Assembly: GCF_937951745.1 (NCBI RefSeq)
Contig: NZ_CALFBQ010000038.1
Span: 1 to 64,000, forward strand
Length of the DNA: 64,000 nucleotides
DNA from: an uncultured Chloroflexus sp.
Lineage (GTDB): Bacteria > Chloroflexota > Chloroflexia > Chloroflexales > Chloroflexaceae
Direction: 5' to 3'
The position numbers and the translations under genes are program-made. Numbering within the stretch: the first letter of the stretch is position 1; each line of letters starts with the position of its first letter. The notes under the pieces are model-generated. The model worked only from the letters and a program-made list of their open reading frames with translations. It made no database searches and had not been told where the DNA came from. Below are positions 30,580 through 45,905 of this stretch, piece after piece.

Positions 30580-32906
30580 CACGCACACCTCAACCGCGCC
30601 CCAGCCACTGCCACCTGCCCCAACGCCAAGCCACCATCGTTCGGCGGGGCAAGGCGCGGGATCAGTACAGTAAAGCCATCGGCGCGCAACGCATCGGCCA
30701 GCGTCTCCAGAAGTAAGACATTTTGCAACACGCCGCCGCTGAGGGCAACAGTCGTGAGACCGCGCTCATCGCGCACCCGCCGGCAAGCCGCCAAGAGCGC
30801 CTGCGCAACCCCGTGATGCACCCGACCGGCGATTGCCGCCGGTGCAACCCCGGCCTGCAGATCATCAACCAGCGCCGCCAGCAGCGCTAATCCATCAAGT
30901 ATAAACGGCCCGCCAATAATAGCCGGTTCGCGGAGTGGCATTGGATAAGGCGGCTGTTGTGGATCGGCGATCTGCTCGAAGAGAATAGCCAGCTCGCCTT
31001 CGTAACGGGCAATCTGGCCCATGCCGGCCAGTGCGGCGGCAGCGTCGAAGAGCCGCCCAAGGCTTGAAGTGCGCGGGCTATTGAGGCTCCGTTCAATCAT
31101 ACGGGCCAACACCTGCCACGCCGCTTGATCGAGCTGCCGGGTAAACGGTAGCGCAAGTCGCCAGAAATCAGGGCCGTAGAGCTGAGCCAGCGCCGCTGCT
31201 GCCACCCGCCACGGCTGGCGCACCGCCTGCTCACCACCGGGCAAGGTCAGCGGCCTAAGATGACCGACACGCTCATACTCGGCACAGGTCGCTACCAGCA
31301 CCTCACCCCCCCACACTGTTCCGTCCGGCCCATAGCCGCTGCCATCGGCGGCAATCCCGATTACCGGCCCGGTGTGACCGTATTCGGCCAGCACAGCGGC
31401 AATATGGGCGTGGTGATGTTGCACGCCAATCTTACGTTCAATTGGCATTGCGAGTGCCGCTTGGGTAGCTAGATAGCCGGGGTGCAGATCGAAAGCCACT
31501 ACCTCGGGCACAATCTCAAACAACCGTTGAAAGTGAGCAATCCCCTCGTGGAACGAGCGCAGCGTAGGCAGATTTTCGAGATCGCCAATGTGATGACTCA
31601 GAAAGACCTCGCGCCCGCGAGCGAGAGCGAAGGTGTTCTTGAGATGGCCGCCGCAGGCGAGGATCGGGCAGGGCAGTTCGTGAGCCAGCGTGATCGGCGC
31701 GGGCGCATACCCGCGCGAGCGACGGATGAGGAGCGGCCCGCCGGCGGCTACGCGCGCCACACTATCGTCGCAGCGCATGTGGATCGGGCGGTTGTGGGTC
31801 AGGAAGGCATCAGCGATTGCACCCAACCGCTGCGCTGCATCCTCATCTTCATACGCAATCGGCTCATCACTCAGATTGCCGCTGGTTAGCACAATCGCCG
31901 CCACCCGCTGCGAACCAATGACCGCAGCATAATCGGCCAACAGAAGATAGTGCAACGGCGTGTAGGGCAACATCACCCCTAACGTCTGCATCCCCGGCGC
32001 AACCGACGGCGCAACCGGCGCGTCAGGCCGGCGCGGCATCAGCACAATCGGGCGGGCCGGACTCGTCAGCAAGGCATGTGATTGCGGATCGATCACGCAG
32101 AGCCGTGCGGTCATTTCCACATCACACGCCATCACTGCCAACGGTCGTGCCTCACGTTGCTTACGCTGGCGCAACCGGCGCACCGCCGCCTCGTCATCGG
32201 CGGCGCAGGCCAGATGGTAGCCGCCCAACCCCTTGATCGCCACGATCTGACCGTGCGCAAGCGCGGTCGCCGCCGCGATCAGCGGATCGGAATGCGAATC
32301 CATCTCTACCCCGCTTGCACCCCTGAAAAACCGCACCTGCGGCCCACACACCGGACACGCCGTTGGCTGAGCGTGAAATCGGCGGTCACGCGGGTCTTCG
32401 TACTCGGCTCGGCACCGCGCGCAGAGCGGGAAGCTACGCATCGTCGTGTTGGCGCGGTCGTAGGGCACATCGAGCACGATGGTAAAACGCGGGCCGCAGT
32501 TAGTGCAGTTGGTAAACGCATAGCGATAGCGGCGATCAGTTGGATCGGTAATCTCGCGCAGGCAATCGGCGCAGGTAGCGGTATCGGGCGCGATCAGCGT
32601 GCGGCGTTGGGCCTGCGTTTGGCTGGCCGCGATCACAAACTCGCGCTCGCCCAATAACGCCAGCGGCTCAACGCTCACCTGCTCGATGCGGGCGAGAGGC
32701 GGCGCTTCGCGTTGCAGCGCCATTACAAACTCGTGCAACAAGCCCTCCTCACCCTCGATTTCAATCGTCACGCCGGCGCTATCGTTGCGCACAAAACCGG
32801 CCAGCCCCCAACGTTCAGCCAAGCCAAACACAAAGGGCCGGAAGCCGACGCCTTGCACGATGCCGCGCACACTGATCCGCCAGCGCCGCTGCTGATAATT
32901 GATCAT
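30579..32906 (-). CDS. hypF: Carbamoyltransferase HypF, hydrogenase maturation
   Basis: About 775 residues, the usual length. HypF makes the thiocarboxamide on HypE from carbamoyl phosphate, the precursor of the cyanide ligands of the NiFe site. Domains in order: acylphosphatase-like (SVRGIVQGVGFRPFV, about residues 12-26), two zinc fingers (CADC...CTNC, CARC...CPVC, about 105-185), a YrdC-like domain, and a Kae1-like C-terminal domain with QHHHAHIAAVLAEYG. The start is the ATG at 32906, though an ATG at 32918 is also in frame; a longer frame upstream is repeat sequence. It diverges from the structural hydrogenase operon and runs into the methyltransferase gene. Confidence 0.94.
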   Translation of the reverse strand: MINYQQRRWRISVRGIVQGVGFRPFVFGLAERWGLAGFVRNDSAGVTIEIEGEEGLLHEFVMALQREAPPLARIEQVSVEPLALLGEREFVIAASQTQAQRRTLIAPDTATCADCLREITDPTDRRYRYAFTNCTNCGPRFTIVLDVPYDRANTTMRSFPLCARCRAEYEDPRDRRFHAQPTACPVCGPQVRFFRGASGVEMDSHSDPLIAAATALAHGQIVAIKGLGGYHLACAADDEAAVRRLRQRKQREARPLAVMACDVEMTARLCVIDPQSHALLTSPARPIVLMPRRPDAPVAPSVAPGMQTLGVMLPYTPLHYLLLADYAAVIGSQRVAAIVLTSGNLSDEPIAYEDEDAAQRLGAIADAFLTHNRPIHMRCDDSVARVAAGGPLLIRRSRGYAPAPITLAHELPCPILACGGHLKNTFALARGREVFLSHHIGDLENLPTLRSFHEGIAHFQRLFEIVPEVVAFDLHPGYLATQAALAMPIERKIGVQHHHAHIAAVLAEYGHTGPVIGIAADGSGYGPDGTVWGGEVLVATCAEYERVGHLRPLTLPGGEQAVRQPWRVAAAALAQLYGPDFWRLALPFTRQLDQAAWQVLARMIERSLNSPRTSSLGRLFDAAAALAGMGQIARYEGELAILFEQIADPQQPPYPMPLREPAIIGGPFILDGLALLAALVDDLQAGVAPAAIAGRVHHGVAQALLAACRRVRDERGLTTVALSGGVLQNVLLLETLADALRADGFTVLIPRLAPPNDGGLALGQVAVAGARLRCA

Positions 32907-33272
32907 TGCTGGTTCCATACGATGGATGATAAACGCAAAGGCGCGAGGGTGCAAAGCGTGGAAGGAGAGGAAGTCAGAATGGACTATTATCCCAACATCT
33001 CTATGCAACGCTGACTTATGGTTTTGCACACCATACCTACGAACAAATGCACCGCTGTCGTAACCTATGGTTATGAAGCTGCTACTTGACGTTAACAGTT
33101 CGCGACGATTATAATTTGTGCTAATAGTCACGTTCTACACTCTACAAATTGGCTATGCCGCCACTCGCCAAGATGCGCTGAATCTGGAACAGAGACGCGA
33201 AGGAGGTACAGACTTCTAAGCGTCAACCAATTGTTGGTACTCGCCATCAATCACTGTTGTAAGAGGAACACC
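32907..33272. other. Divergent control region of the hydrogenase locus
   Basis: A 366-base gap between hypF and the plus-strand hydrogenase genes. It contains GCGCAAAGG repeat words near hypF (32931-32965), a good plus-strand promoter (33086-33115), an isolated AAGGAGG at 33200-33206 with no start codon after it, and a short ACCAATTGTTGGT inverted repeat (33226-33238). Confidence 0.6.
33086..33115 (+). promoter_or_regulatory. Predicted promoter of the hydrogenase operon
   Basis: TTGACG (33086-33091), an 18-base spacer and TATAAT (33110-33115), or 17 bases to TTATAA. This is one of the best promoter matches in the window and lies 157 bases upstream of the DUF1641 gene, giving a leader of about 150 bases. 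Confidence 0.65.
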
Positions 33273-34136
33273 ATGAGCAGCAATGGCGCCGCCACGTATG
33301 CCGACCGTCCGCTGAACGCCGCCGCCTTACTCGACCGGCTGAACGAACCGCAGACGGCTGCTGCCCTTCACCGCTTACTCGACCACGCCGAATTGCTTGC
33401 TTTTTCAGCAGGTGCAGTTGATAGTCTCTTGCAACGCGGTGAAGTGATCGCCGATAATGTGGCGGCTAGTATGCAAGAGTTGCGCGCGGCGCTGCCGGCG
33501 GAGAGTGGCGAGATCGCCGGCCAACTGGTGCGGCTGGCGCGCACGTTGCCGCAGTTGACCGATACGGTTGAGCAACTCGCAACGCTCACTAGCCAACCGG
33601 CCTTTCAGCGCTTGCTCGTCACGCTTAGCAAACCACAAACCCTCGCGGCACTCGACCGATTGCTCAGCCAGAGCGAGTTACTCGCCTTCCTTGTGAGCGC
33701 ACTTGATCACCTGCTTGCCCGTGGTGATGAGCTGACCGAGAATATCCGTAGTTCGGTCGAAGAATTGCGTGTTGTGCTGAGCAATAGCGCGATCACGCCT
33801 GATAAGCTGATAGATGCCTTTATCGCCTTCTTGCCGTACTTCCCGCGACTTGTGGCAGTTGCCCCTAACTTTATCGAGGTGATTGAGAAGATCGAGCCGT
33901 TCATTGCCTCTGCCGAATTCGATGCCCTACTCGATTCGGGGGTGTTCCACCCAGACACGGTGAAACTGGTCGGCGAAGCCGGCGACGCCTTCGTTGCCAG
34001 CCGCGAGACGTTGCGCCAGTCACCAAAACCCGTCGGTCTATTCGGGCTACTCCGCGCTTTGCGCGACCCCGATGTACAACGCGCCGCTGGCCTGATCGTC
34101 GAATTTGGTCGCCGCTTTGGCAGTTCGTTGAAGTGA
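33273..34136 (+). CDS. DUF1641-type protein with internal duplication, first gene of the hydrogenase operon
   Basis: A 287-residue Ala/Leu-rich helical protein without signal peptide or Cys. Residues about 16-70 and 110-165 are an internal repeat: LNEPQTAAALHRLLDHAELL and LSKPQTLAALDRLLSQSELL open the two copies, each followed by an AVDSLLQRGE/ALDHLLARGD-type helix and an S-x-EELR helix. This matches DUF1641 proteins, which occur beside formate dehydrogenases and group 2a hydrogenases and have no proven role. The long amphipathic helices could scaffold or bind membranes. AGAGGA lies 6 bases before the ATG. It heads the operon that includes hypA and hypB. Confidence 0.75.
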   Translation: MSSNGAATYADRPLNAAALLDRLNEPQTAAALHRLLDHAELLAFSAGAVDSLLQRGEVIADNVAASMQELRAALPAESGEIAGQLVRLARTLPQLTDTVEQLATLTSQPAFQRLLVTLSKPQTLAALDRLLSQSELLAFLVSALDHLLARGDELTENIRSSVEELRVVLSNSAITPDKLIDAFIAFLPYFPRLVAVAPNFIEVIEKIEPFIASAEFDALLDSGVFHPDTVKLVGEAGDAFVASRETLRQSPKPVGLFGLLRALRDPDVQRAAGLIVEFGRRFGSSLK

Positions 34137-34238
34137 AGGAGCGCCAAGACGCTAAGGACGCCAACGCAAAGGCGGGAAGAGTACTGCTATGCTTAAGCTG
34201 TGTCCTTTGCGCACGTTGCGCCTTTACATTCAAAACCT
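34137..34238. repeat. GCGCAAAGG-family inverted repeat pair
   Basis: CGCCAAGACGCTAAGGACGC and CAACGCAAAGGCGG on the left are answered by CCTTTGCGCACGTTGCGCC on the right, so the intergenic RNA can fold into a long imperfect hairpin between the DUF1641 gene and hypA. Confidence 0.6.
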
Positions 34239-34583
34239 ATGCACGAATTATCTATCGCCTACAACATCGTGAAGATTGCCAGCGCCGCCGCTGCCGAAGC
34301 TGGCGCAGATGAGATCAGCGCCGTTCATTTACGAATAGGCGCACTGGCCGGCGTGGTCGCCGATGCGCTGCGCTTCAGTTTTGCCATCGCCGCCGAAGGC
34401 ACGCCTCTGGCCAACGCCGAATTGATGATCGAAGAGGTGCCAGTAACAGTCTTTTGCCCCACCTGCAACACCGAAGTGACCTTACCGAACCCGCGCTTGT
34501 TTCGTTGCCCGCAGTGCAACCAACCCTCCGGCCAGATCGTTCACGGGCGCGAATTGGAATTAGTGGCATTGGAGACGCCATGA
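34239..34583 (+). CDS. hypA: Hydrogenase nickel-incorporation protein HypA
   Basis: A 114-residue metallochaperone that passes Ni to the hydrogenase large subunit together with HypB. The N-terminus MHEL carries the essential Ni-binding His2. The zinc site is two CxxC pairs, Cys73/76 (CPTC) and Cys90/93 (CPQC). All are in their usual places. The ATG at 34239 is fixed by the need for Met-His at the N-terminus; no strong ribosome site precedes it, because the upstream sequence is a repeat. The stop overlaps hypB as ATGA, which would couple translation of the two partner proteins. Confidence 0.94.
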   Translation: MHELSIAYNIVKIASAAAAEAGADEISAVHLRIGALAGVVADALRFSFAIAAEGTPLANAELMIEEVPVTVFCPTCNTEVTLPNPRLFRCPQCNQPSGQIVHGRELELVALETP

Positions 34584-35254
34584 GTTACGAAGCCAAACGG
34601 TTGATCGAGATTCGACAGGGTGTGTTGAGCAAGAATGACCAACTCGCCGCCGAGCTGCGCAGCCGCTTTCACGCCGCTGGTGTGTTTGTAGTCAACCTGC
34701 TCTCTAGCCCCGGCGCCGGCAAGACCAGCCTGCTCGAAGCGACGATGCGCGCGCTGCTGGCCGAATACCGGGTAGCGGCACTGGTTGGCGATCTCGCCAC
34801 CGATAACGACGCCCGCCGATTAGCCCGGAGTGGCGGTTTGGTGCGTCAAATTCAGACCGGTGATATGTGTCATCTTGAGGCAGACATCGTTGCGCGCCAC
34901 CTTGAAGGTTGGGATTTGAACGAGCTTGATCTACTGTTTATCGAGAACGTTGGTAATCTGGTTTGCCCATCAGGATATGACCTCGGTGAAGCAACCCGAG
35001 TCGTGCTGCTTTCGACAACCGAGGGCGAAGATAAACCTTTGAAGTACCCTTCAACCTTCGCTACTGCCGATGCAGTGTTGTTGACCAAGATGGATTTAGC
35101 TGAGCCGGTGGGATTTGATCGCGCAATGGCCGAAGAGAATATTCGCGCTGTTAACCCGCTCGCGCCGATCATTGCGACATCTGCCCGTCACGAAGGTGGT
35201 CTCGACGAGTGGCTGGTATGGCTTCGCGAGCGTTTCAAGGCGCAAAGGGGTTAA
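34580..35254 (+). CDS. hypB: Hydrogenase nickel-insertion GTPase HypB
   Basis: A 224-residue SIMIBI-class GTPase that drives Ni delivery with HypA. The P-loop is [15 protein letters not shown] (about residues 40-54), the metal switch Cys-His is in TGDMCHLEAD, and ENVGNLVCPSGYDLGE and a TKMDL base-recognition motif follow. It lacks the poly-His nickel-storage N-terminus found in some bacteria, so only the GTPase-associated metal site is present. The last codons (FKAQRG) lie inside a GCGCAAAGG repeat that continues past the stop, suggesting the repeat supplied the end of the reading frame. Confidence 0.94.
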   Translation: MSYEAKRLIEIRQGVLSKNDQLAAELRSRFHAAGVFVVNLLSSPGAGKTSLLEATMRALLAEYRVAALVGDLATDNDARRLARSGGLVRQIQTGDMCHLEADIVARHLEGWDLNELDLLFIENVGNLVCPSGYDLGEATRVVLLSTTEGEDKPLKYPSTFATADAVLLTKMDLAEPVGFDRAMAEENIRAVNPLAPIIATSARHEGGLDEWLVWLRERFKAQRG

Positions 35255-35280
35255 CGCAAAGGCGCAAAGCGTACCAAAGG
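35233..35280. repeat. GCGCAAAGG repeat overlapping the 3' end of hypB
   Basis: Words AAGGCGCAAAGG (from about 35238) and AACGCAAAGGCGCAAAG (from about 35254) straddle the hypB stop codon. The following 100 bases up to hupS hold no gene. Confidence 0.6.
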
Positions 35281-35376
35281 TTTTGATAGTCGGATAAGTA
35301 AGTTTGTGGTTCTTACTATCATCGCGATGTAGCTTTTGGTTCCGGGTTGTAGTTGTGATGACAAGGAGACGGTTGA

Positions 35377-36348
35377 ATGGCGACACTGCTTTGGCTGCAG
35401 GGCGGCGCTTGTAGCGGCAACACGATGTCGTTCCTCAACGCCGAGGAGCCCAGCGCCTGCGATTTGGTGACCGATTTCGGTATCGAGATTCTCTGGCACC
35501 CGTCGCTTGGGATGGAGTTGGGCAAAAACGCAAAGCGGATTTTCCACGATTGCACCAGCGGCGCGCGCCCGCTCGATATCTTTGTCTTTGAAGGATCGGT
35601 GATACAGGCGCCAAACGGCACTGGCCGCTACAACATGTTCGCCGATCGCCCGATGCAAGAATGGGTACGCGAGTTGGCTGCACAGGCCGGCATTGTGGTT
35701 GCAATCGGCGATTGCGCCTGCTGGGGTGGCATCCCGGCGATGGCCCCCAACCCCAGCCAGTCTACTGGTCTCCAATTCCACAAGCGTGAACTCGGTGGCT
35801 TTCTTGGCCCCAACTGGCGCTCGAAGGCTGGCTTGCCGGTGATTAACATCCCCGGCTGCCCTGCCCACCCCGATTGGGTGACGCAGATTCTGGTCGCCGT
35901 CGCCAGTGGCCGCGCTGCCGACATCGCGCTCGATGATTTGCAACGCCCACAGACCTTCTTTACCAGCTTCACCCAAACCGGCTGCACCCGTGTGCAGTTC
36001 TTCGAGTACAAGCAATCGACGCTCGAATTTGGGCAGGGCACCCGCACTGGCTGTCTCTTCTACGAGTTTGGCTGCCGCGGCCCGATGACCCGCTCGCCCT
36101 GCAACCGCATCCTCTGGAATCGCCAGTCGTCGAAGACTCGCGCCGGTATGCCCTGCACCGGCTGCACCGAGCCAGAGTTCCCCTTCTTTGATCTGGCCCC
36201 CGGCACCGTCTTCAAGACCCAGAAGATCAGTGGCGCGATTCCGAAGGAAGTGCCAACCGGCACCGATCCGGTCAGCTATATGGCCCTCGCAGCGGCGGCG
36301 CGAGTGGCAGCGCCGAAGTGGGCAAAAGAGGATATGTTTGTTGTATAA
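35377..36348 (+). CDS. hupS: [NiFe] uptake hydrogenase small subunit, group 2a
   Basis: A 323-residue electron-transfer subunit with three Fe-S clusters. Cys ligand motifs are LQGGACSGNTMSFL (residues 7-20), GDCACWGGIPAM, IPGCPAHPDW, QTGCTRVQFF, GCLFYEFGCRGPMT, SPCNRILWN and AGMPCTGCTEPEFPFFD. It has no twin-arginine signal and no C-terminal membrane anchor, so the enzyme is cytoplasmic. The motif pattern is strikingly close to cyanobacterial HupS and other group 2a enzymes, which oxidise H2 and can work in air. AAGGAGA lies 8 bases before the ATG. Placement as group 2a is by remembered family motifs, not alignment. Confidence 0.93.
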   Translation: MATLLWLQGGACSGNTMSFLNAEEPSACDLVTDFGIEILWHPSLGMELGKNAKRIFHDCTSGARPLDIFVFEGSVIQAPNGTGRYNMFADRPMQEWVRELAAQAGIVVAIGDCACWGGIPAMAPNPSQSTGLQFHKRELGGFLGPNWRSKAGLPVINIPGCPAHPDWVTQILVAVASGRAADIALDDLQRPQTFFTSFTQTGCTRVQFFEYKQSTLEFGQGTRTGCLFYEFGCRGPMTRSPCNRILWNRQSSKTRAGMPCTGCTEPEFPFFDLAPGTVFKTQKISGAIPKEVPTGTDPVSYMALAAAARVAAPKWAKEDMFVV

Positions 36349-36366
36349 GCTAGGAAGAAGCTGGCA

Positions 36367-38004
36367 ATGGTCAATATTACCGAGAATCCGGCAACGATCA
36401 CCGGGCGCGATCTGCGCATTAGCCCGCTTGGCCGCGTCGAGGGTGACCTCGACCTGCGCGTCACAATCCGCGATGGGGTTGTGACCGGTGCATGGACTGA
36501 GGCCTCGATGTTTCGCGGCTTTGAGATTATTTTGAAGGGCAAAGATCCGCAGGCCGGCTTGATCGTCACGCCGCGCATCTGTGGCATCTGCGGCGGCAGC
36601 CACTTGACAAAAGCGGCCTACGCGCTCGATACGGCATGGCAAACTGAGTTGCCGCCCAATGCGACCCTGATTCGCAATATCGCGCAAGCTTGCGAGACAC
36701 TGCAAAGCATTCCACGCTGGTTCTATGCGCTATTCGCTATCGACCTGACCAACAAGAAGTACGCCCACCTACCCGAATACGATGAGGCGGTGCGCCGGTT
36801 CGCTCCCTTTGTCGGCACGAGCTATGAGCACGGCGTGACCCTTTCAAATAAGCCGGTCGAGATTTACGCCATCTTTGGCGGCCAGTGGCCCCACTCTAGC
36901 TTCATGATCCCCGGCGGTGTGATGTGCGCGCCGACGCTGGCCGATGTCACCCGTGCGATCGCTATTCTCGAATACTGGAAGGATGAGTGGCTGGAGAAGA
37001 AGTGGCTCGGCTGCTCAGTCGATCGCTGGATGCAGAACAAGAGCTGGGCCGATGTGATGGAGTGGATGCACGAGAACGAGCGTCATTACAACTCCGACTG
37101 CGGCTTCTTCATTCGCTTTGCGATGGCCGCCGGTCTCGATACGTATGGCGCTGGCTGGAATAACTACATCGCTACCGGCACCTATTTCCATCCCGAACAC
37201 TACGCCCGCCCGACGATCGAGGGGCGCAACGCGGCGCTGATCGCGCGCTCAGGTGTCTATGTCAACGGCCAGTTCTACGATTTTGATCAGGCCAACGTGC
37301 GCGAAGACGTGACCCACTCGTTTTACGAAGGCAGCTATGCGCTGCACCCATTTGAAGGGCGCACCGAGCCGATTGATCCCGAAGTTGGCCGCCGGCAGGG
37401 CAAGTACACGTGGGCCAAAGCGCCCCGCTATCTCATCCCCGGTGTCGGCAGCCATCCGGTCGAGGCCGGCCCACTGGCCCGGCAGGTGATTGCTGGCCGC
37501 CCCGGCGCCGCCGATTGGCAAGACTACGACCCACTCTTCCTCGATGCAGTGACAACGGTCGGGCCGAGTGTGTTGGTGCGGGTGATGGCTCGCATGCACG
37601 AAGCGCCCAAGTATTACAAGCTGGTGCGCAAGTGGCTTGACCAGATCAATCTGCACGAGAAGTTTTATATCAAGCCGAAGGAGCTGCCCGAAGGGCGGGG
37701 GTTCGGTTCGACCGAAGCCGCTCGCGGTAGTCTCTCGGACTGGATCGTGCTCAAGGATGGCAAGATCGAGAATTATCAGGTGGTAACACCAACGGCGTGG
37801 AACATCGGGCCACGCGATGGCCGTGATGTCAATGGGCCGATGGAACAAGCCTTCCTCGGCGCGCCGATTGCCGATCCTAACGATCCGGTCGAACTCGGCC
37901 ATGTGGCGCGGAGCTACGACTCGTGCCTCGTCTGTACGGTACATGCCTACGACGAAAAGACCGGCAAAGAGTTGGCGCAGTTCCGCATTGGTGAAGGCGC
38001 GTAG
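36367..38004 (+). CDS. hupL: [NiFe] uptake hydrogenase large subunit, group 2a
   Basis: A 545-residue catalytic subunit that splits H2. The L1 motif is PRICGICGGSH (Cys72 and Cys75), and the L2 motif is DSCLVCTVH (Cys520 and Cys523, His526). These four Cys bind the Ni-Fe(CN)2CO centre. The 19 residues after His526 form the tail removed by the maturation protease after Ni insertion. L2 has Asp-Ser-Cys where Asp-Pro-Cys is commoner, a form seen in group 2a. It starts 18 bases after hupS, with AGGAAG upstream. No cytochrome b partner follows, as expected for a soluble or peripherally bound group 2 enzyme. Confidence 0.94.
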   Translation: MVNITENPATITGRDLRISPLGRVEGDLDLRVTIRDGVVTGAWTEASMFRGFEIILKGKDPQAGLIVTPRICGICGGSHLTKAAYALDTAWQTELPPNATLIRNIAQACETLQSIPRWFYALFAIDLTNKKYAHLPEYDEAVRRFAPFVGTSYEHGVTLSNKPVEIYAIFGGQWPHSSFMIPGGVMCAPTLADVTRAIAILEYWKDEWLEKKWLGCSVDRWMQNKSWADVMEWMHENERHYNSDCGFFIRFAMAAGLDTYGAGWNNYIATGTYFHPEHYARPTIEGRNAALIARSGVYVNGQFYDFDQANVREDVTHSFYEGSYALHPFEGRTEPIDPEVGRRQGKYTWAKAPRYLIPGVGSHPVEAGPLARQVIAGRPGAADWQDYDPLFLDAVTTVGPSVLVRVMARMHEAPKYYKLVRKWLDQINLHEKFYIKPKELPEGRGFGSTEAARGSLSDWIVLKDGKIENYQVVTPTAWNIGPRDGRDVNGPMEQAFLGAPIADPNDPVELGHVARSYDSCLVCTVHAYDEKTGKELAQFRIGEGA

Positions 38005-38315
38005 CAGGGGCAAGCGCGCAAGGACGTTTGCGCCGGTAGTGAGTTGTCATTACCGGCGCAGACGGACACCGGCTGCTCAGGCTGGAGTGATATGTGGCAT
38101 TGCGAGCCGCGCGGAGGGTCAGGCGGTGCTCTACCCGACACGCGGCAACGAAATCCCCCGCGATAGCGGGAACGATCCGCTCGGGGTGTCAGTCGCGGAA
38201 GAGGGAGATTACTGCGGTCGAGCGGCATCCAGCGTGGCTAGACGCTGCCGCTCCCTCGCAATGACCAGCGAGCGTGGCGTGGAAATACCTTGACTTATCG
38301 CTAGATCATTATGTC
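38005..38315. repeat. 311-base gap with dispersed repeat between hupL and the protease gene
   Basis: About 38010-38036 has GCGCGCAAGGACGTTTGCGCC (repeat words). About 38098-38280 is another dispersed element with GCGAGCCGC at one end, AATCCCCCGCGATAGCGGG in the middle and CCTCGCAATGACCAGCGAGCG at the other end; a relative lies inverted near 13868-13935. No gene is seen. Confidence 0.55.
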
Positions 38316-38837
38316 ATGCATGAACAACTCCTGATTATCGGCTGTGGCAACCTCTTACGCGGCGACGACGCGGTTGGGCCGGTGTTGGTGCGGCGCTTGC
38401 TTGAACTCGGCCTGCCGCCCGGCGTTGGCGTTGCCGACGCCGGCACGAGCGGGATGGATGTCACGTTTCGCATGCGCGGAATCGATAACGTGATTTTGGT
38501 TGACGCCGCCCGCACCGGCACCGAACCCGGCACCATTTACGCAGTGCCGGGTTCGGTTGTTGAGCACTTGCCGCCGCTGACCGGCATCAATCTGCACGCT
38601 TTCCGCTGGGATCATGCGCTGGCATTTGGCCGCTGGTTGCTTAAGGATGCGTACCCGCGCTCGGTGCAGGTGTATCTGATTGAAGGGGCTGATTTCACTA
38701 TCGGTGCGCCGCTTAGTCCAGCAGTTGCCGCCCGGATGGAGGATTTGGCCCAGCACCTGAGCCGTAACCCGTGGCAACCGTATCTTGGTCATCACATCGT
38801 TGATGAAGACCGAAACAATGGAGAGCTGGCTGCTTGA
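38316..38837 (+). CDS. Hydrogenase maturation protease (HupW/HyaD-like)
   Basis: A 173-residue nickel-dependent endopeptidase that trims the 19-residue C-terminal tail of the large subunit. It begins MHEQLLIIGCGNLLRGDDAVG, where the conserved Gly-Asp-Asp loop holds an acidic Ni ligand; a second acidic ligand lies in NVILVDAARTGTEPGT and the His ligand is expected in LTGINLHAFRWDHALAF. Specificity for the group 2a subunit is inferred from its position behind it. The start at 38316 follows a 300-base repeat-rich gap. Its last 20 bases overlap the next gene. Confidence 0.9.
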   Translation: MHEQLLIIGCGNLLRGDDAVGPVLVRRLLELGLPPGVGVADAGTSGMDVTFRMRGIDNVILVDAARTGTEPGTIYAVPGSVVEHLPPLTGINLHAFRWDHALAFGRWLLKDAYPRSVQVYLIEGADFTIGAPLSPAVAARMEDLAQHLSRNPWQPYLGHHIVDEDRNNGELAA

Positions 38838-39129
38838 ATTGACAGCGCAAGGCTATTTGCATCTACCAGCGATGCTGGCCCAACGCTACTTTCCTGCTGA
38901 TTTGCTAGTGGCGCTGCCGCGAGATGGCGAGATTTGGTTGGCGCCGCTGCGCGGGCCGGCAGCCGGTGGTTTGTTGTTGAAGCAACGCAATGCCCGCGGC
39001 GACCGTAGTGTCTTGATTTGGGAAGTTTTGCCGCCGGCAACGCCGCCCGGCCCGCGCCGCGCCGTGTGGGATGACGATCACGGCGTGTTGCGTATGGCAT
39101 TGTCGCCAGAACCGGAGCATCCTTTATGA
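38818..39129 (+). CDS. Small protein of unknown function in the hydrogenase operon (103 aa)
   Basis: I do not recognise a family. The protein is about 103 residues, soluble, and starts MESWLLELTAQGYLHLPAML, then alternates short hydrophobic strands with charged turns (ALPRDGEIWLAPLRG, SVLIWEVLPP), suggesting a compact beta-rich fold. There is no Cys, so it binds no Fe-S cluster. The start at 38818 is the best of three in-frame ATGs (also 38785 and 38803) because it overlaps the protease gene least. It overlaps the TPR gene as ATGA, so its synthesis is coupled to that protein. An assembly or subunit role in the hydrogenase is likely from position only. Confidence 0.75.
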   Translation: MESWLLELTAQGYLHLPAMLAQRYFPADLLVALPRDGEIWLAPLRGPAAGGLLLKQRNARGDRSVLIWEVLPPATPPGPRRAVWDDDHGVLRMALSPEPEHPL

Positions 39130-40349
39130 ATCATCTTGCTGTGCGTCCGCAACCGTTGGGCGTATTCGCTCTTCCTACCGGATATTTAGTCTTGCCGCCG
39201 AGTGACAAGCCCACTGCCGGCCCGGCATTAGCCGCCCTGCTGCGCGGCGAACTCCCGGCTGAATGGCCGCCGGAATGGCAGTTCTACGCGCACGCGCTGG
39301 CCGGCGAGGTCTCAGCGGCGCTGGCAGCATTACCACCGGCTAATGATCTCGTCACCCGCTACAACCGCTATGTGTTGGCCGGCGCTCCTGCCGATGACTT
39401 GACGCTCCACACGCTGCTTGAGGGCGAATTGGCATGCTTGCAAGGGGTCGCAGCGTTTACCATGGGCCATCGCCGCGAACCGCCACCGCTCGCTGGCGCG
39501 ACTGGCGAGGTGCGTGCGCTGGCGTTGGTGGCCCACGCGGCGGCAGCGATTGAGCAGGGTGACATTCCTGCCGCTGACCGGCACTTTGCCGAGGCGATTG
39601 CGGCTGCTGCCCCCGTCTCGCCCGTGCTGGCCGGTCAGATCGCGCTCAACCGGGCCGAGCTGGCGATGCAGCATGGCGGTGAGCTGACGCTGATTACGCG
39701 CTGGTTGCAGCAAGCAATTGACTACACTCCACCTAAAAGCCTCTTAGAAGTGCGCGCTCGCGCGGCGGCACAACTAGGCCAACTGCTGCAAGAGCATGCC
39801 AATGGCCAGCGCGGGCCGTTGCAGGCTGCTGTGCGCTGCTACCAAGAGGCGCTTCGCTTCTACCGGCGCGAGACCTACCCGCTCGAGTTCGCCCTCATCC
39901 AAAACAATCTGGCGCTGGCTTACCTTGCGATGCCAATGACCGAAGCCGGCGACCGGTTGCGCGGCGCGATTGCAGTGCAGGCGCTGCGTGCGGCGCTCAG
40001 CGTCTACGATCCCGACCAGCATCCGCACGAGTGGACGAGCGCTCGCCTCAATTTGGCTAACGCGCTGCAATATGTTCACTCGGCACACCCGGCTGAGCAT
40101 CTGCTCGAAGCAGTGGCGATTTATGAAGACCTGTTGCAGCGGCGCGATCCGATTGCTGATCCGGCTGGCTATGCCCGCATTCTAGCCAATTTGGGCAATG
40201 CTCTCGCCCATCTTGGCATCTTCGCCGAAGCCCGCGAACGGTTGCTGCAAGCCGCGCAACTCTTTGCCCAGATCGGCGATGAGCCGGCGATGATGACGGT
40301 GCGCGAGTTGCTGGCGAATATCGAACAGCACGAGGCGGTCGGAAAGTAG
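39126..40349 (+). CDS. Tetratricopeptide-repeat protein of the hydrogenase operon
   Basis: A 407-residue Ala/Leu-rich helical protein. TPR-like units are visible from about residue 130 onward, clearest in ALIQNNLALAYLAMP, ARLNLANALQYVHSA, EHLLEAVAIYEDLLQRR and RILANLGNALAHLGIFAEAR. The first 100 residues are of another kind, with a Pro-rich opening (FALPTGYLVLPPSDKPTAG). TPR arrays bind partner proteins, so this may hold the hydrogenase to a membrane or redox partner. TPR genes recur in group 2a operons of cyanobacteria and actinobacteria as I recall. The ATG overlaps the preceding stop as ATGA. Confidence 0.85.
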   Translation: MNHLAVRPQPLGVFALPTGYLVLPPSDKPTAGPALAALLRGELPAEWPPEWQFYAHALAGEVSAALAALPPANDLVTRYNRYVLAGAPADDLTLHTLLEGELACLQGVAAFTMGHRREPPPLAGATGEVRALALVAHAAAAIEQGDIPAADRHFAEAIAAAAPVSPVLAGQIALNRAELAMQHGGELTLITRWLQQAIDYTPPKSLLEVRARAAAQLGQLLQEHANGQRGPLQAAVRCYQEALRFYRRETYPLEFALIQNNLALAYLAMPMTEAGDRLRGAIAVQALRAALSVYDPDQHPHEWTSARLNLANALQYVHSAHPAEHLLEAVAIYEDLLQRRDPIADPAGYARILANLGNALAHLGIFAEARERLLQAAQLFAQIGDEPAMMTVRELLANIEQHEAVGK

Positions 40350-40376
40350 TGCCGGTCGTCCGGCTCCTAACGACGT

Positions 40377-40533
40377 AGGAATGATAAACGCAAAGGCGCA
40401 AACAACGCGAAGAGCACGAAGATTTTTTGCCATAAGCCATCCTTATTGACCAACACCCAAGCCAAACACTTTGCAATGTTGCGTTCACGATCTCCGCACC
40501 TTTGCTCGCCGTGCGTCTCTCTGTGAAAAGAGG
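40377..40533. repeat. GCGCAAAGG repeats between TPR gene and 120-aa gene
   Basis: Words AAACGCAAAGGCGCAAAC (from about 40386) and ACACTTTGC...CACCTTTGC (about 40466-40505) face each other, so the transcript can fold back over this non-coding stretch. No gene is seen. Confidence 0.5.
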
Positions 40534-40896
40534 ATGGAAGCATACCAACGCCAACAATTTGATCTGCTGCTGCTGATGGCAACCGAACGCTTTATCGAAC
40601 GAATCGTCGAGCGTTGTGCTGGTCCTGAAGCGGCATTGAACCGCTTGCGCGCCGATCCGCACGGCGAGGGTATCTGGCTTGATCGGTTTGTCGCGGCGAT
40701 CTTTCAAGATTTTTTGCTCGATAATCCGGCGGGAGCATGTTTCGTCCTGCAAGCGTTGAGCGGACGCCCGCTGCCTTCACCGCCGGCAGGCAAGATTGAA
40801 GTGATGCTGCAAACGATGGCGCGTCAAGTGTTCGCCGAGCTGTTGGCCCTGCGCAGCGAAGAGGTGCTTGAGCAAATGATCGGGTATGGTGGCTAG
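40534..40896 (+). CDS. Small helical protein of unknown function in the hydrogenase operon (120 aa)
   Basis: Not recognised. It is 120 residues, helical, mildly acidic, and opens MEAYQRQQFDLLLLMATERF; it has two Cys (in VERCAGPE and GACFVLQ) that are not arranged as a metal motif. The ATG at 40534 follows AAAAGAGG with almost no spacing, so the ribosome site is unusual and the true start may differ. Position between the TPR gene and the NifU/Rieske gene suggests a hydrogenase accessory role. It could be an assembly chaperone or an adaptor; nothing in the sequence distinguishes these. Confidence 0.7.
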   Translation: MEAYQRQQFDLLLLMATERFIERIVERCAGPEAALNRLRADPHGEGIWLDRFVAAIFQDFLLDNPAGACFVLQALSGRPLPSPPAGKIEVMLQTMARQVFAELLALRSEEVLEQMIGYGG

Positions 40897-40951
40897 CAAT
40901 CGGGTTAAAGATGCCTCCGCGCTCGCTGCGGCTAAATAACAAACTATCGAG

Positions 40952-41815
40952 ATGCTTATGTCCCAATCGCTCACTACTGCTGACGAACTCGAACAAGCCG
41001 CTGCGCGGGTTGATGCCGCGATGGCTGCTGTCGCCAAGCTCGAACCGGCGGCGCAGACCACCGCTGCCGAGTTGAAACAGGCCATCGAGGCGTTTCACAA
41101 ACTGGCCCTCACCACGATCGTTCGCCGTCTCAAGCAAGACCCGCGCGGCAAAGAGCTGCTGCTCGAACTGGTCGAAGACCCCGCCGTTTACGCGCTGCTG
41201 GTGATGCACGGCATTGTGCGCGCTGATCCGCTCACTCGCGCCCGCCGCGTGCTCGACGGCGCACGCCCCTATATGCAATCGCACGGCGGCGATGCCGAAT
41301 TGGTTAATGTGCGCGACGGCGTGGCTTACGTGCGCTTGCATGGCTCGTGTAACGGCTGTTCGCTCTCGGCTGTTACCTTGCGCAAACACGTCGAAGAGGC
41401 GCTGTTGCGCGAGGTGCCGGAAATTGCTCGCCTTGAGGTGGTGAATGATCAAGCGACGCCGGCGATTCTCCGCGTCGAAGCGCAGGAAGCACCGGCAGTC
41501 GAAAAGGGATGGGTATGTGGTCCTGCCATCACCGAGGTGCCGCCCGGCCAGATGGTGAGCTTCGCCACCGAACGCGTTAGCGTGCTGATCGTCAATCTAG
41601 CCAACCGGCTGAGCGCCTACCGTAACGCTTGCGCCCATCAGGGTCGCCCGCTCGATGGCGGAATGTTTGATCCTGACGCTGGCACGCTTACCTGTCCATG
41701 GCATGGTTTCTGTTTCGATGTGCAGAGCGGCGAATGCCTCACTGCGCCGCAAGCGCAGCTTGAGCCGTTCCCACTTCAGGTTGTTGATGGCATGATTTGG
41801 GTACGACCGCAATGA
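40952..41815 (+). CDS. NifU C-terminal/Rieske fusion protein, probable hydrogenase electron carrier
   Basis: A 287-residue fusion. Residues 1-90 are helical; 95-165 are a NifU C-terminal-like domain with the cluster-binding pair Cys133-x2-Cys136 (GSCNGCSLSA); 185-287 form a Rieske domain with ligands Cys227/His229 (CAHQGRPLDGG) and Cys248/His251 (CPWHGFCFD). A Rieske [2Fe-2S] centre could carry electrons from HupS towards the quinone pool, replacing the cytochrome b of membrane-bound enzymes; a similar Rieske protein (HucE) is reported beside the mycobacterial Huc enzyme. The NifU part may bind a further cluster or help assembly. No signal peptide, so cytoplasmic. The stop overlaps the NHL gene by ATGA. 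Confidence 0.9.
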   Translation: MLMSQSLTTADELEQAAARVDAAMAAVAKLEPAAQTTAAELKQAIEAFHKLALTTIVRRLKQDPRGKELLLELVEDPAVYALLVMHGIVRADPLTRARRVLDGARPYMQSHGGDAELVNVRDGVAYVRLHGSCNGCSLSAVTLRKHVEEALLREVPEIARLEVVNDQATPAILRVEAQEAPAVEKGWVCGPAITEVPPGQMVSFATERVSVLIVNLANRLSAYRNACAHQGRPLDGGMFDPDAGTLTCPWHGFCFDVQSGECLTAPQAQLEPFPLQVVDGMIWVRPQ

Positions 41816-42915
41816 TTGCAAACAAGACAGTTCGTTGGTTGGGCGCGCCGGCGCCGGGTGGCTTGGCGCTGCCGGCGGCCGATGCAACACCGGCCCATCT
41901 CTATGCGCCGCGCGGTGTCTATCTCGACGACGAGCGGCTGATCGTCGTTGATTCCGGCAATCATCGCGTCTTACTATGGCACGGGTTTCCGTTCCAAGAC
42001 CACCAACCAGCTGACCTTGTGCTTGGTCAGCCCGATTTCTTCCATGAAGGGCCACGCGCTGCCGGTCATAGCCCCGCCAATGGGTTCCACCTGCCAACCG
42101 GCATTGCGGTAGCTGAAGGCCGGCTCTACCTTGCCGATGCGTGGCATCATCGTGTATTATGTTGGCATCGCATACCAGATCGATCCGGCGCGCCGCCTGA
42201 TAGCGTGATCGGGCAAGATTCGTTGCTCGATATCGAACCAAACCGTGGCGGCGCGGTTGGCTCACAGACGCTCTACTGGCCGTATGGCGTGGCATGGATC
42301 AACGGCTGGTTTTATATTGCTGATACTGGCAACCGGCGGGTGCTAGGATGGCATGGGTTGCCAGAGAACAGCCAGCCGCCAGACCTGATTCTCGGCCAGC
42401 CCGATCCGTGCAGCAACGCTGAAAATCGCGGCGGCCCGCCGGCAGCCAACAGTTTTCGTTGGCCACACGCCGTCGCCGGCGATGGCAAGACGTTGTATGT
42501 CGCCGATGCCGGCAACCATCGCGTGGTAGGGTGGACGCCGCCGCCAACGACTGATCGACCCGCCGATCTGGTGTTGGGGCAGCAAAATATGCAGAGCGCG
42601 TTTGAACAACCGCACGTGCCGCAGGGAGCGCACCGGCTCCGCTTTCCGTATGCGGTAGCCTGCGCCAACGACCGGTTGTTTGTAGCTGATACTGCCAACA
42701 ATCGCGTGCTGCTGTGGCAACCCATCCCGCGCGCCGGAGCCGGTCTGCCGGCGCAAGCGGTCTACGGCCAGTACAATTTTGCCGATAGCGGCGAAAACCG
42801 CTGGCAAGCGGTTGGCCTCGATACGCTCTGCTGGCCTTACGGTCTCTGCGCGCATCGCCAGTGGCTGGCGATCGCCGACTCTGGTAATAATCGGGTCTTG
42901 ATCTGGGAGGTGTAG
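41812..42915 (+). CDS. NHL-repeat beta-propeller protein of the hydrogenase operon
   Basis: A 367-residue beta-propeller. At least six NHL-type blades are visible, each with an 'xVADSGNHRVLxW' core: LIVVDSGNHRVLLW, LYLADAWHHRVLCW, FYIADTGNRRVLGW, LYVADAGNHRVVGW, LFVADTANNRVLLW and LAIADSGNNRVLIW, alternating with LVLGQPD-type strands. There is no signal peptide, so it acts in the cytoplasm, unlike many NHL proteins. Propellers of this kind give a protein-binding platform; a structural or docking role for the hydrogenase complex is inferred from position and from recall of NHL genes in related operons. The ATG at 41812 is used because of the ATGA overlap. Confidence 0.87.
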   Translation: MIANKTVRWLGAPAPGGLALPAADATPAHLYAPRGVYLDDERLIVVDSGNHRVLLWHGFPFQDHQPADLVLGQPDFFHEGPRAAGHSPANGFHLPTGIAVAEGRLYLADAWHHRVLCWHRIPDRSGAPPDSVIGQDSLLDIEPNRGGAVGSQTLYWPYGVAWINGWFYIADTGNRRVLGWHGLPENSQPPDLILGQPDPCSNAENRGGPPAANSFRWPHAVAGDGKTLYVADAGNHRVVGWTPPPTTDRPADLVLGQQNMQSAFEQPHVPQGAHRLRFPYAVACANDRLFVADTANNRVLLWQPIPRAGAGLPAQAVYGQYNFADSGENRWQAVGLDTLCWPYGLCAHRQWLAIADSGNNRVLIWEV

Positions 42916-42924
42916 GGGACGCAA

Positions 42925-43078
42925 CCGCACAGCCGCCAAAACGCAAAGGGCGCTGAAGTTGACCCAGCATACGATTCTCACCATAAAAACCCTTGCAATC
43001 CTTGCGTTCTCTGCGCCTTTGCGTTAACACCTTTGCGCCTATGCTTACTCTGCGCCTTGACGTTAGGAAAGGAAGCGC
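42925..43078. repeat. Long GCGCAAAGG inverted repeat before hypC
   Basis: AAAACGCAAAGGGCGC (from about 42938) faces CTCTGCGCCTTTGCGTTAAC (from about 43009), and further TTTGCGCC / CTCTGCGCC words follow up to 43060. The transcript can form a strong hairpin here, followed by the good hypC ribosome site. Confidence 0.6.
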
Positions 43079-43080
43079 GT

Positions 43081-43347
43081 ATGTGTCTCGGTATTCCCGG
43101 TCGCATCGTCGAAATCTACGACAACGGCCTCACCCGGATGGGTAAGGTTGATTTCAACGGCATTGTCAAAGAAGTGTGTCTCGCTTACCTACCCGATCTG
43201 CAAGTTGGTGATTACACAATCGTGCATGTAGGTTTTGCGATTACTCGCCTCGATGAGGAATCGGCGCGCGAAACGCTCGCCCTCTTCCAATCACTCGGTG
43301 TGCTTGAAGAGGAGCTTCATCCCGATGAATCGCCCGAATCCGTCTGA
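43081..43347 (+). CDS. hypC: Hydrogenase maturation chaperone HypC
   Basis: An 88-residue OB-fold chaperone that carries the Fe(CN)2CO unit with HypD and presents it to the large subunit. The N-terminus is MCLGIPGRIVEI, with the essential Cys2 exposed after Met removal, so the ATG at 43081 is certain; AGGAAG lies about 7 bases upstream. The middle has GKVDFNGIVKEVCLAYLPDL and the typical VGDYTIVHVGFAI. The acidic C-terminal tail (EEELHPDESPESV) is common in the family. It is the first of three maturation genes that close the operon. Confidence 0.94.
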   Translation: MCLGIPGRIVEIYDNGLTRMGKVDFNGIVKEVCLAYLPDLQVGDYTIVHVGFAITRLDEESARETLALFQSLGVLEEELHPDESPESV

Positions 43348-43515
43348 GGCGAAGGCGCAAAGATTCTACACGCAAAGGTGCAAAGGCGCTAAGATGCTAT
43401 AAGGTGAGTCTGTCACTACGCTTGTACCACCGTACAAAAAACGTAGTGTTCTTTGCGCCTTTGTGGTAAACCCTTTGCATCTACGCATTGATACGCATTG
43501 AATAGAGAGCACGTG
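43348..43515. repeat. GCGCAAAGG inverted repeat between hypC and hypD
   Basis: AAGGCGCAAAG and GCAAAGGTGCAAAGGCGC on the left (43350-43392) face CTTTGCGCCTTTGTGG and CCCTTTGCATC on the right (43451-43485), making another imperfect hairpin inside the operon. Confidence 0.6.
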
Positions 43516-44637
43516 ATGAAATATCTTGACGAGTTTCGCGATCCTGAGCTGGCCCGCCGCCTGTTCGATCAGATCCGGCGCATTACGACCCGCCACTGGG
43601 CAATTATGGAAGTCTGCGGCGGTCAGACGCACTCGATCATTCGTAACGGAATTGACCAGTTACTGCCGCCCGAAATCGAGCTAATCCACGGCCCCGGCTG
43701 CCCAGTCTGCGTTACGCCGCTCGAAATTATCGACAAGGCACTCGCTATCGCCGCTCAACCCGGCGTGATCTTCTGCTCGTTTGGCGATATGCTGCGTGTC
43801 CCCGGCAGCCGTAAAGACCTCTTTCGCATTAAGAGTGAAGGCGGCGATGTGCGGATTGTCTATTCGCCGCTCGACGCGGTCAAGCTGGCTCAGCAACACC
43901 CTGACCGCCAAGTCGTCTTCTTCGCCATCGGCTTCGAGACCACCGCTCCCGCCAACGCAATGGCGGTCTATCAGGCGGCCCGTCTCGGCCTCAAGAACTT
44001 CTCGATGCTGGTTTCGCACGTACTGGTGCCGCCGGCTATCAGCGCGATTATGGAGTCGCCTACCAACCGCGTCCAAGGCTTCTTGGCCGCCGGCCATGTC
44101 TGTAGCGTGATGGGGACCGACGAGTACCGCCCGCTAGTCGAGAGATACCGCGTGCCCATCGTCGTCACCGGCTTCGAGCCGCTTGACGTACTCGAAGGCA
44201 TTCGCCGCGTCATTCTCCAGCTTGAGCAGGGTCGCGCCGAACTCGACAACGCCTACGAACGAGCGGTTCGCCCCGAAGGCAATGTTGCCGCCAAACAGAT
44301 GCTGGCCGATGTCTTCACCGTCACCGACCGGGCATGGCGCGGGATCGGCGTCATTCCGCACAGCGGCTGGCGACTAAGCGACCGCTACGCCGAGTTTGAC
44401 GCCGAGCGTCGCTTTGACGTGCGCGACATCCAGACCGCTGAGTCGACTCTCTGCCGCAGCGGCGAGGTGTTGCAAGGTCTGCTCAAACCCAACCAATGCC
44501 CGGCTTTCGGCAAAGAATGCACCCCGCGCACTCCGCTCGGCGCAACGATGGTGTCGAGCGAAGGCGCATGCGCAGCGTATTATCAGTATGGCCGGTTTGT
44601 GCCGGCAAACACGATTGGCGTGGCATCGCCTCATTAA
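43516..44637 (+). CDS. hypD: Hydrogenase maturation protein HypD
   Basis: A 373-residue Fe-S protein that, with HypC and HypE, assembles the Fe(CN)2CO group. Signature motifs are [12 protein letters not shown] (about residues 32-43), [11 protein letters not shown] (about 65-75), [14 protein letters not shown] and the C-terminal cluster-binding block with Cys in [14 protein letters not shown] and [13 protein letters not shown]. The Cys set for the [4Fe-4S] cluster and the thiol redox pair appears complete. The ATG at 43516 is chosen over a TTG at 43498. It is 38 bases ahead of hypE. Confidence 0.94.
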
Positions 44638-44675
44638 GACGCAAAGCAAGCAATGTATGTTAAGAATGACACCCT

Positions 44676-45731
44676 ATGACCGCACCACTCGACTTTAGCA
44701 ACTGGGTCTGTCCGGCGCCATTGCGCGACTATCCGGCCATCGTGATGGGTCACGGCGCCGGCGGCAAGCTCTCGGCTGAACTGATTAACCATCTCTTCCT
44801 GCCTGCGTTCGGCGGCCCGCGCGGCCCCCTCGCCGACGCTGCCCGCATCGAGATCGGCAGCGCGCGGCTGGCCATCTCTACCGATAGCTTCGTCGTGCGT
44901 CCGCTCTTCTTCCCCGGCGGCAATATTGGCGAACTGGCCGTCAACGGCACCATCAACGATATTGCCATGATGGGAGCACAGCCGCTCGGGTTGACCGCCA
45001 GCTTCATTCTCGAAGAGGGTATGCCGCTCGACCAACTCGGTGTGATTGCCGAGAGCATGGGTCGCGCTGCCCAGCAGGCCGGCGTCACCCTCATCGCTGG
45101 CGACACCAAGGTGGTTGATCGCGGTCACGGTGATGGCGTGTTCATTACCACCACTGGCTTTGGCCTGATCCCGGCAGGCGTGAATATCGGCCCTGAGCAA
45201 GCCCACCCCGGCGACGCGATTATCGTCAGCGGGCCGATTGGCCTGCACGGTGTCGCCATCCTCAGCGTGCGCGAAGGGATCGAATTCGGCGCGCCGGTCG
45301 TCTCTGACACTGCCGCGCTGCATGGCCTCGTCAGCGCAATGCTTGCCAGCGGCGCCCGCATCCACACCCTACGCGACCCCACTCGTGGCGGCGTCGCCGC
45401 TGCACTCAACGAGATCGCTGCCGATGCCCAGATCGGCATCGAAATCGTCGAGCGTGATGTTCCAGTGCCACCTACTGTCCAAGCCGCTTGCGAACTGCTC
45501 GGCATGGATCCGCTCCACATCGCCAACGAAGGCAAACTCATTGCCTTCGTCGAGCGCGACGACGCCGATCGCTTGCTAGCCGCCATGCGCTCCCACCCGC
45601 TAGGCCGCGATGCCGCCCTGATCGGCTACGCCACCGCCGATCACCCCGGCGTGGTCGTGGCTCGCACTAGCATTGGTGGGATGCGCGTGGTTGACACCCT
45701 TGTCGGCGAACAATTGCCGCGTATTTGTTAA
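44676..45731 (+). CDS. hypE: Hydrogenase maturation protein HypE
   Basis: A 351-residue PurM-like dehydratase that converts the HypF-made C-terminal thiocarboxamide to thiocyanate and hands it to HypCD. It has HGAGGKLSAELINHLF (residues 26-41), STDSFVVRPLFFPGGNIG, LAVNGTINDIAMMGA and VIAGDTKVVDRGHGDGVFIT-type motifs. The protein ends PRIC, the obligatory C-terminal Cys that is modified. It is the last gene of the hydrogenase operon. The gap before it (44638-44675) has one GACGCAAAG word. Confidence 0.94.
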   Translation: MTAPLDFSNWVCPAPLRDYPAIVMGHGAGGKLSAELINHLFLPAFGGPRGPLADAARIEIGSARLAISTDSFVVRPLFFPGGNIGELAVNGTINDIAMMGAQPLGLTASFILEEGMPLDQLGVIAESMGRAAQQAGVTLIAGDTKVVDRGHGDGVFITTTGFGLIPAGVNIGPEQAHPGDAIIVSGPIGLHGVAILSVREGIEFGAPVVSDTAALHGLVSAMLASGARIHTLRDPTRGGVAAALNEIAADAQIGIEIVERDVPVPPTVQAACELLGMDPLHIANEGKLIAFVERDDADRLLAAMRSHPLGRDAALIGYATADHPGVVVARTSIGGMRVVDTLVGEQLPRIC

Positions 45732-45905
45732 AGACGCAAAGAGGCAAAGGTCGCGAAGGTCGCAGAGATGGGAGTGAATGGTGGGGCAAGCGCGCTTATT
45801 GGCCTCCCCACAAAAACCTTCGCGCCTTTGCGTTTACCCAACCCTTGCGTTCCTCGCAGAGCCAGACAGCCGTCCAGCTCTGCGTCTCTGCCCTCTCTGC
45901 GCCTT
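45732..45905. repeat. GCGCAAAGG repeat array after hypE
   Basis: AAGACGCAAAGAGGCAAAGG and neighbours (45731-45765) face CTTCGCGCCTTTGCGTTTACC, CTTGCGTTCCTCGCAGAG and CTCTGCGCCTTTTTTT (45822-45910). The final arm ends in T7, so this copy may also terminate the hydrogenase operon. Confidence 0.6.

Follow-up and report, generated by a model that had tools for sequence, protein, structure and literature searches.

What does a protein that bears two iron–sulfur cluster sites, one of the NifU type and one of the Rieske type, contribute to a [NiFe]-hydrogenase operon? This question is raised by the reading frame at 40952–41815 of a 64,000-nucleotide stretch of Chloroflexus DNA (the whole stretch is called the window below), for which a preliminary description had placed NifU cysteines at C133/C136 and Rieske ligands at C227/H229 and C248/H251; its coordinates, frame and residue numbers proved exact. 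The nearest named locus is that of C. islandicus (93% identity). The product is HucE of a group 2a (Huc) [NiFe]-hydrogenase, and the combination of NifU and Rieske domains is already known, since HucE was published with the same pair in 2019 (PMC6883350). The finding is thus settled as the already described partner of a hydrogenase that oxidises H2 at atmospheric levels. Beyond the divergent hypF, the operon runs from a DUF1641 gene to hucE and on downstream through an NHL-repeat gene to hypE, in the following order:

30579–33131, reverse strand: hypF, divergent (family match)
33231–34136, forward strand: DUF1641 protein, candidate HucM stalk subunit (PF07849, E 7.7e-15)
34239–34583, forward strand: hypA (family match)
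34580–35254, forward strand: hypB (family match)
35377–36348, forward strand: hucS, small subunit (best PDB match M. smegmatis Huc 7uur, E 2e-188)
36367–38004, forward strand: hucL, large subunit (best PDB match Huc 7uus, E 5.9e-276)
38316–38837, forward strand: large-subunit maturation protease, HycI family (Pfam)
38785–39129, forward strand: conserved hypothetical protein, 114 aa (no Pfam match; present in most related loci)
39126–40349, forward strand: TPR-like protein (Pfam, related loci)
40534–40896, forward strand: conserved hypothetical protein, 120 aa (no Pfam match; present in many related loci)
40952–41815, forward strand: hucE, NifU–Rieske protein, 287 aa (open reading frame, Pfam, alignment; likely start 40958)
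41812–42915, forward strand: NHL-repeat protein (ATGA overlap with the hucE stop)
43081–43347, forward strand: hypC (Pfam)
43498–44637, forward strand: hypD (Pfam)
44676–45731, forward strand: putative hypE (assigned from its position and from related loci only)

The operon is that of a group 2a hydrogenase, as judged by the best matches of HucS and HucL to M. smegmatis Huc, and the proximal site of HucS reads CSGN. The 40952–41815 product combines a NifU-like domain carrying CxxC with a C-terminal Rieske motif CxH(x15-18)CxxH, and it groups with homologues linked to group 2a, apart from those linked to group 1h. In a quick tree of residues 8–165, many of whose branches are weak and some long, 64 Rieske-type rows and one further locus (L056) separate from 52 others (SH-aLRT 85, unstarred). 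According to Islam, Cordero and Greening, both HucE and HhyE are putative Fe-S proteins bearing a NifU CxxC, to which HucE adds a Rieske motif (PMC6883350). Compared by its published description, HucE of M. smegmatis (MSMEG_2268) has the same NifU CxxC and C-terminal Rieske domain and is encoded in a group 2a structural operon; the published motif is CxH(x15-18)CxxC, whereas the Chloroflexus protein has CxH-x18-CxxH, a canonical Rieske motif with histidine as the last ligand. A 2020 study by Islam et al., which included C. aggregans, names hucE and NHL genes among those accompanying group 2a hydrogenases (PMC7784904), and a 2025 neighbourhood survey includes the NifU/Rieske cluster (PMC12727194).

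Along the chain, the following parts can be distinguished:

40979–41227, forward strand: N-terminal helical domain, residues ~10–92 (no Pfam family; the sole part kept in locus L174)
41240–41446, forward strand: NifU-like domain, residues 97–165 (Pfam PF01106; PDB matches 2z51, 1xhj)
41348–41359, forward strand: NifU cluster site C133-x-x-C136 (sequence, alignments)
41450–41482, forward strand: flexible linker, residues 167–177 (pLDDT < 50)
41498–41812, forward strand: Rieske domain, residues 183–287 (PF00355; best Foldseek match 5bok, E 3.8e-9)
41630–41638, forward strand: Rieske ligands C227-x-H229 (sequence, alignment)
41693–41704, forward strand: Rieske ligands C248-x-x-H251 (sequence, alignment)

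Translation probably begins at 40958 rather than 40952, because the relatives start at the methionine of codon 3. Both Pfam assignments lie far over the curated cut-offs (NifU, PF01106, residues 99–160, E 7.7e-21; Rieske, PF00355, residues 187–270, E 1.3e-15). The motif S110-H-G-G-D precedes the NifU cysteines C133-x2-C136, and the Rieske motif reads C227-x-H229-x18-C248-x2-H251. All six ligands together with C262 are invariant in a 34-row alignment, an invariance that is partly conditioned since the rows were picked by a scan with peptides including CPWHGFCF and YMQSHGGD; C133, C136, C227, H229 and C262 fall outside these two peptides. The presence of two cluster sites on one carrier is supported. 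An AlphaFold2 model (mean pLDDT 87.7, pTM 0.46) consists of the helical domain, which the preliminary description did not include, the NifU domain, a disordered linker and the Rieske domain. Foldseek places the NifU part nearest to the NifU-like protein CnfU (2z51, E 2e-7) and the Rieske part nearest to the Rieske ferredoxins of dioxygenases. Since the linker has a pLDDT below 50 and pTM is 0.46, no fixed geometry of the two cluster sites is predicted, and the stepwise electron transfer between them that had been suggested gains little from the model. The possibility that the helical domain is related to the 120-aa protein encoded nearby or to DUF1641 was considered and rejected (hhalign probabilities of only 11% and 0.5%, respectively). 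The additional cysteine C262 (window 41735–41737) occurs in 62 of 64 Rieske-type rows, with glycine in L138 and L139; the position is mixed in rows with a four-cysteine set and is arginine in all ten rows with a Cys3His1 set.

Several related identities were set aside. HhyE of group 1h shares the helical and NifU domains, and its C-terminal domain is homologous to the HucE Rieske domain (hhalign 99.1%), but it carries CxxC...CxxC in place of CxH...CxxH or lacks the domain altogether; the window protein has H229 and H251 rather than two C-terminal CxxC motifs, and HucL belongs to group 2a. The scaffold and carrier proteins NfuA and NifU have a C-terminal NifU domain with CxxC in common with HucE, which scores 44 bits against the NfuA equivalog TIGR03341 (cut-off 269.35) and 40.4 bits against the NifU equivalog TIGR02000 (cut-off 273.3). 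Against equivalogs of dioxygenase Rieske ferredoxins the best score is 37.6 bits (cut-off 113), although the domain fold is the same. In Nostoc, the region between hupSL and hyp contains TPR and NHL genes together with one for a NifU-like protein (alr0692/Npun_R0364; PMC2408588, PMC3126725); this cyanobacterial protein differs in that its additional domain is described as thioredoxin-like, not Rieske, in the 2008 paper (PMC2408588). The two papers on this extended hyp operon, that of 2008 first and then that of 2011, proposed a role in small-subunit maturation (PMC2408588, PMC3126725).

We then asked how closely HucE follows the hydrogenase. HucS homologues of at least 76% identity were found in 10 Chloroflexota genomes (301 searched; 9 of the 10 with a full HucE), 8 Actinomycetota genomes (376 searched; 7 of the 8 with a full HucE) and 2 Acidobacteriota genomes (277 searched; both with a full HucE). 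The two exceptions are G238 and G615. In G238, a relative within the Chloroflexaceae, a clean loss of hucE was considered and rejected, because a scaffold gap of N falls inside the gene; the same gap accounts for the missing NifU domain of that genome. Conversely, a close HucE without HucS occurred in no genome of the three sets. Among 15 plasmid records with a HucE match, a hydrogenase operon was present in all nine that were opened, and the other six are Bradyrhizobium records whose match identity (35.0%) equals that of the opened Bradyrhizobium record. In the Chloroflexaceae, PF01106 was found in 17 of 41 genomes; within the 19 of these searched for HucS, one NifU domain was present in 9/9 Huc genomes with an intact hucE and none in 9/9 genomes lacking HucS. 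As the domain tracks Huc in this family and hucE is the only PF01106 gene in the window's genome (in which PF01592 occurs at two places and PF01521 at one), it is no housekeeping carrier. Among the Chloroflexota matches listed, those covering both domains are HucE or diverged relatives (L083–L094); sampling was seeded from HucE, so that these counts leave aside NifU–Rieske fusions of unrelated origin.

How hydrogenases for atmospheric H2 are assembled, and what HucE and HhyE each do, can be addressed by comparing the wider family. Profile searches (30, 30 and 11 rows examined) placed diverged HucE relatives next to other hydrogenases among the matches listed. HucE and these relatives make up a single family tied to hydrogenases, whose NifU part is retained far more often than the Rieske-fold part. 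The family counts rest on 117 aligned rows, one of which (L193) was put in the four-cysteine class by eye. Loci with a broken frame (L053), a contig end (L057) or a gap (L121) were dropped, as were same-genome duplicates (L133, L136, L163, L164), stand-alone NifU proteins (L059, L102, L103), short loci superseded by longer ones, and the Chloroflexus and HucS loci L060–L082; L174, which has no NifU domain, was treated separately. The C-terminal domain carries a Rieske Cys2His2 set in 64 rows, a four-cysteine set (CxxC...CxxC) in 28 and a Cys3His1 set in 10 (C...CPWHxC, with the first histidine missing and a cysteine at the place of F253); it is absent from 14 rows and irregular in one (L168). 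By sequence comparison the three kinds are homologous: aligned with the Rieske set, the other two reach hhalign probabilities of 99.1% and 99.8%, and Pfam still scores both as Rieske.

Large subunits were assigned with the window's HucL, L105 (1093 bits to 5aa5 HofG) and L104 (524 bits to 5aa5 HofG) as references. The tie to hydrogenase operons noted at the outset held throughout, with all 46 Rieske-type relatives that have a large-subunit gene adjoining a group 2a hydrogenase (17 more have no large subunit in the stretch). Likewise, the four-cysteine rows go with the 1h reference (27/27; one more without a large subunit in the stretch) and the Cys3His1 rows with a third large-subunit clade (8/8; two more without). 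Rows lacking the C-terminal domain stand with 1h (12) or 2a (1), one more being without a large subunit in the stretch. The proximal motif of the small subunit reads CxGN in 44/44 readable Rieske loci, CxGD in 16/16 four-cysteine loci and CDGC in 6/6 Cys3His1 loci, leaving uncounted CYGCT (L045) and CIGCT (L188), whose small subunits are cut by the contig end. Since each class is nearly one clade, this match of class to clade has the weight of some three independent observations rather than dozens. The third clade, we presume, may be HydDB group 1l; the literature associates that group with Actinobacteriota. In searches mostly outside subscription journals and the 2019 supplement, no publication reporting the Cys3His1 class and its third hydrogenase clade came up.

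Natural variants indicate which parts can be missing. In the Anaerolineae locus L056, an otherwise complete group 2a Huc operon with an intact HucS encodes a HucE reduced to the NifU form. The 14 rows without a C-terminal domain require at least 10 changes on the tree of residues 8–165, at least four of these losses being forced by well supported (starred) branches. Locus L174 (G615, on a 4.48 Mb contig) goes further: in an actinobacterial Huc operon whose hydrogenase part is complete, and in which no NHL gene was matched, the E-protein (L174:13060–13512) keeps only the helical domain, to which a CxCx5CxC tail is attached; the NifU and Rieske domains are both absent. The neighbour of the M. 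bryophila group 1h hydrogenase also lacks a NifU domain (PMC12319191). The NifU cysteine pair is intact in 115 of 117 rows, C133 being replaced by Phe in L099 and Ser in L114. A C-terminal domain without a NifU domain was seen in none of the 117 rows, a count in which profile and row filter favour the N-terminal half. It is thus the redox module that varies and can be dispensed with; this applies less to the NifU carrier, and least of all to the helical domain. These variants, together with the Cys3His1 set, make it testable which parts of HucE are needed; in the literature searched, we found no experiments on its NifU or Rieske residues.

We favour the reading, at a probability of roughly 0.6, that HucE is an Fe-S assembly factor for HucS with a built-in redox module rather than an obligatory link between Huc and menaquinone. 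In this scheme, the helical domain would dock on the unfinished hydrogenase, C133/C136 of the NifU domain would take a cluster, probably from the general Fe-S machinery, and pass it to HucS, and the tethered Rieske domain or its substitute would give or take electrons while clusters are inserted or adjusted under air. Assembly is already in print as one option for HucE (PMC6883350). In M. smegmatis, the one organism in which a requirement of HucE for H2 oxidation is reported, deletion of hucE abolished Huc activity, also with the artificial acceptor NBT (PMC6883350), and purified Huc, described as HucS, HucL and HucM with three [3Fe-4S] clusters, binds menaquinone and reduces its analogues with HucE absent (PMC10017518). 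Combining these two papers, we infer that HucE helps to make the enzyme rather than to carry its electrons. The assembly reading is further favoured by the NifU domain outlasting the C-terminal one, by a C-terminal ligand set that varies with hydrogenase class, as that of an accessory redox module may, and by the tracking of Huc by the NifU domain in Chloroflexaceae. Against it stand L122 and L175, which have an unusual proximal ligand and yet no family member, and the variants L174, L099 and L114, because of which NifU delivery is not indispensable everywhere. The rubredoxins HoxR/HupI of group 1d, small redox proteins for aerobic maturation, would be analogues by role, differing from HucE in lacking a NifU domain (Fritsch et al. 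2014, as cited in PMC6883350).

The main alternative is that HucE carries electrons from the distal HucS cluster through its Rieske cluster, perhaps via the NifU cluster, to menaquinone. Islam et al. proposed both roles and found this one most plausible, citing the conserved cluster motifs, the essentiality and encoding in the structural operon, the lack of a cytochrome b subunit, a Rieske potential suited to menaquinone, and the migration of HhyE together with HhyLS in native gels (PMC6883350), a preference that weighs against assembly. The nearest folds, ferredoxins, also fit a carrier, as do the Rieske ligands in 64/64 group 2a rows with the domain, a count which, with the class set by motif, means that no half-decayed site was seen. 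We nevertheless consider an electron carrier unlikely, given the menaquinone-analogue and NBT results and the complete Huc operons without Rieske (L056) or without both domains (L174).

Less probable still is that HucE serves mainly as a structural chaperone, the helical domain holding HucS/HucL or the stalk during oligomer assembly while the metal sites are regulatory or redox-sensing. The helical domain is common to all variants, L174 included, and the operon also encodes TPR and NHL proteins, repeats that commonly mediate protein contacts; a purely structural role would, however, not demand the cysteine pair kept in nearly all rows. That the NifU domain loads only the Rieske cluster of its own chain, as the preliminary description had suggested, is very improbable as a general role: one chain does bear both sites with a flexible linker between them, but 14/117 NifU-bearing rows have no Rieske-fold domain, hence nothing to load in cis, and one of these (L056) belongs to group 2a.

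A broader and distinctly speculative reading, which we hold to be improbable as a whole, unites HucE and HhyE in a modular family of Fe-S assembly adaptors bound to hydrogenases. Its members would combine a common helical domain for docking and a NifU carrier with a Rieske-fold redox module that can be exchanged, and the ligands of this module would have changed together with the proximal residue of the small subunit. Asn at that position (CxGN, group 2a) would go with Cys2His2, Asp (CxGD, group 1h) with four Cys, and Cys (CDGC, the third clade, nearest 1h) with Cys3His1. If true, the redox module would be tuned to the cluster to be built. Knowledge of the family could also aid heterologous production of Huc-type enzymes.

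The rule that a non-cysteine proximal ligand needs a HucE-type protein was tried and rejected: L122 and L175 have CGGD, but the stretch retrieved around them encodes no relative of HucE, and a HucE-type protein accompanies the third clade although its proximal residue is the ordinary cysteine. The L122 and L175 hydrogenases are 44–48% identical to HucS, carry the CGGD proximal motif, lack a HucE relative and, we assume, perhaps belong to group 2e. Group 2e hydrogenases are discussed in PMC11018855.

Further observations concern the operon and its genome. The DUF1641 protein matches annotated DUF1641 genes adjoining two plasmid Huc operons, and its overlapping stretches 33–137 and 116–300 each match the single DUF1641 protein found beside a Huc operon in mycobacteria, pointing to a duplication within the protein. 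An Eco57I-type restriction-modification methylase (28192–30588, reverse strand) adjoins hypF. Another [NiFe] large subunit, 498 aa long, is also encoded in the window's genome (G000:C19:78408–79901; L198:6409–7902); around it, the gene sizes resemble, by our assumption, a bidirectional HoxEFUYH set. Finally, the short repeat CGCAAAGGCGCAAAG occurs in 14 copies in the window (at most 2 mismatches; 0.4 expected), which span 34165–45832 and lie mostly between hydrogenase genes (e.g. 35255, 40389, 43009, 43371, 43451, 45818).
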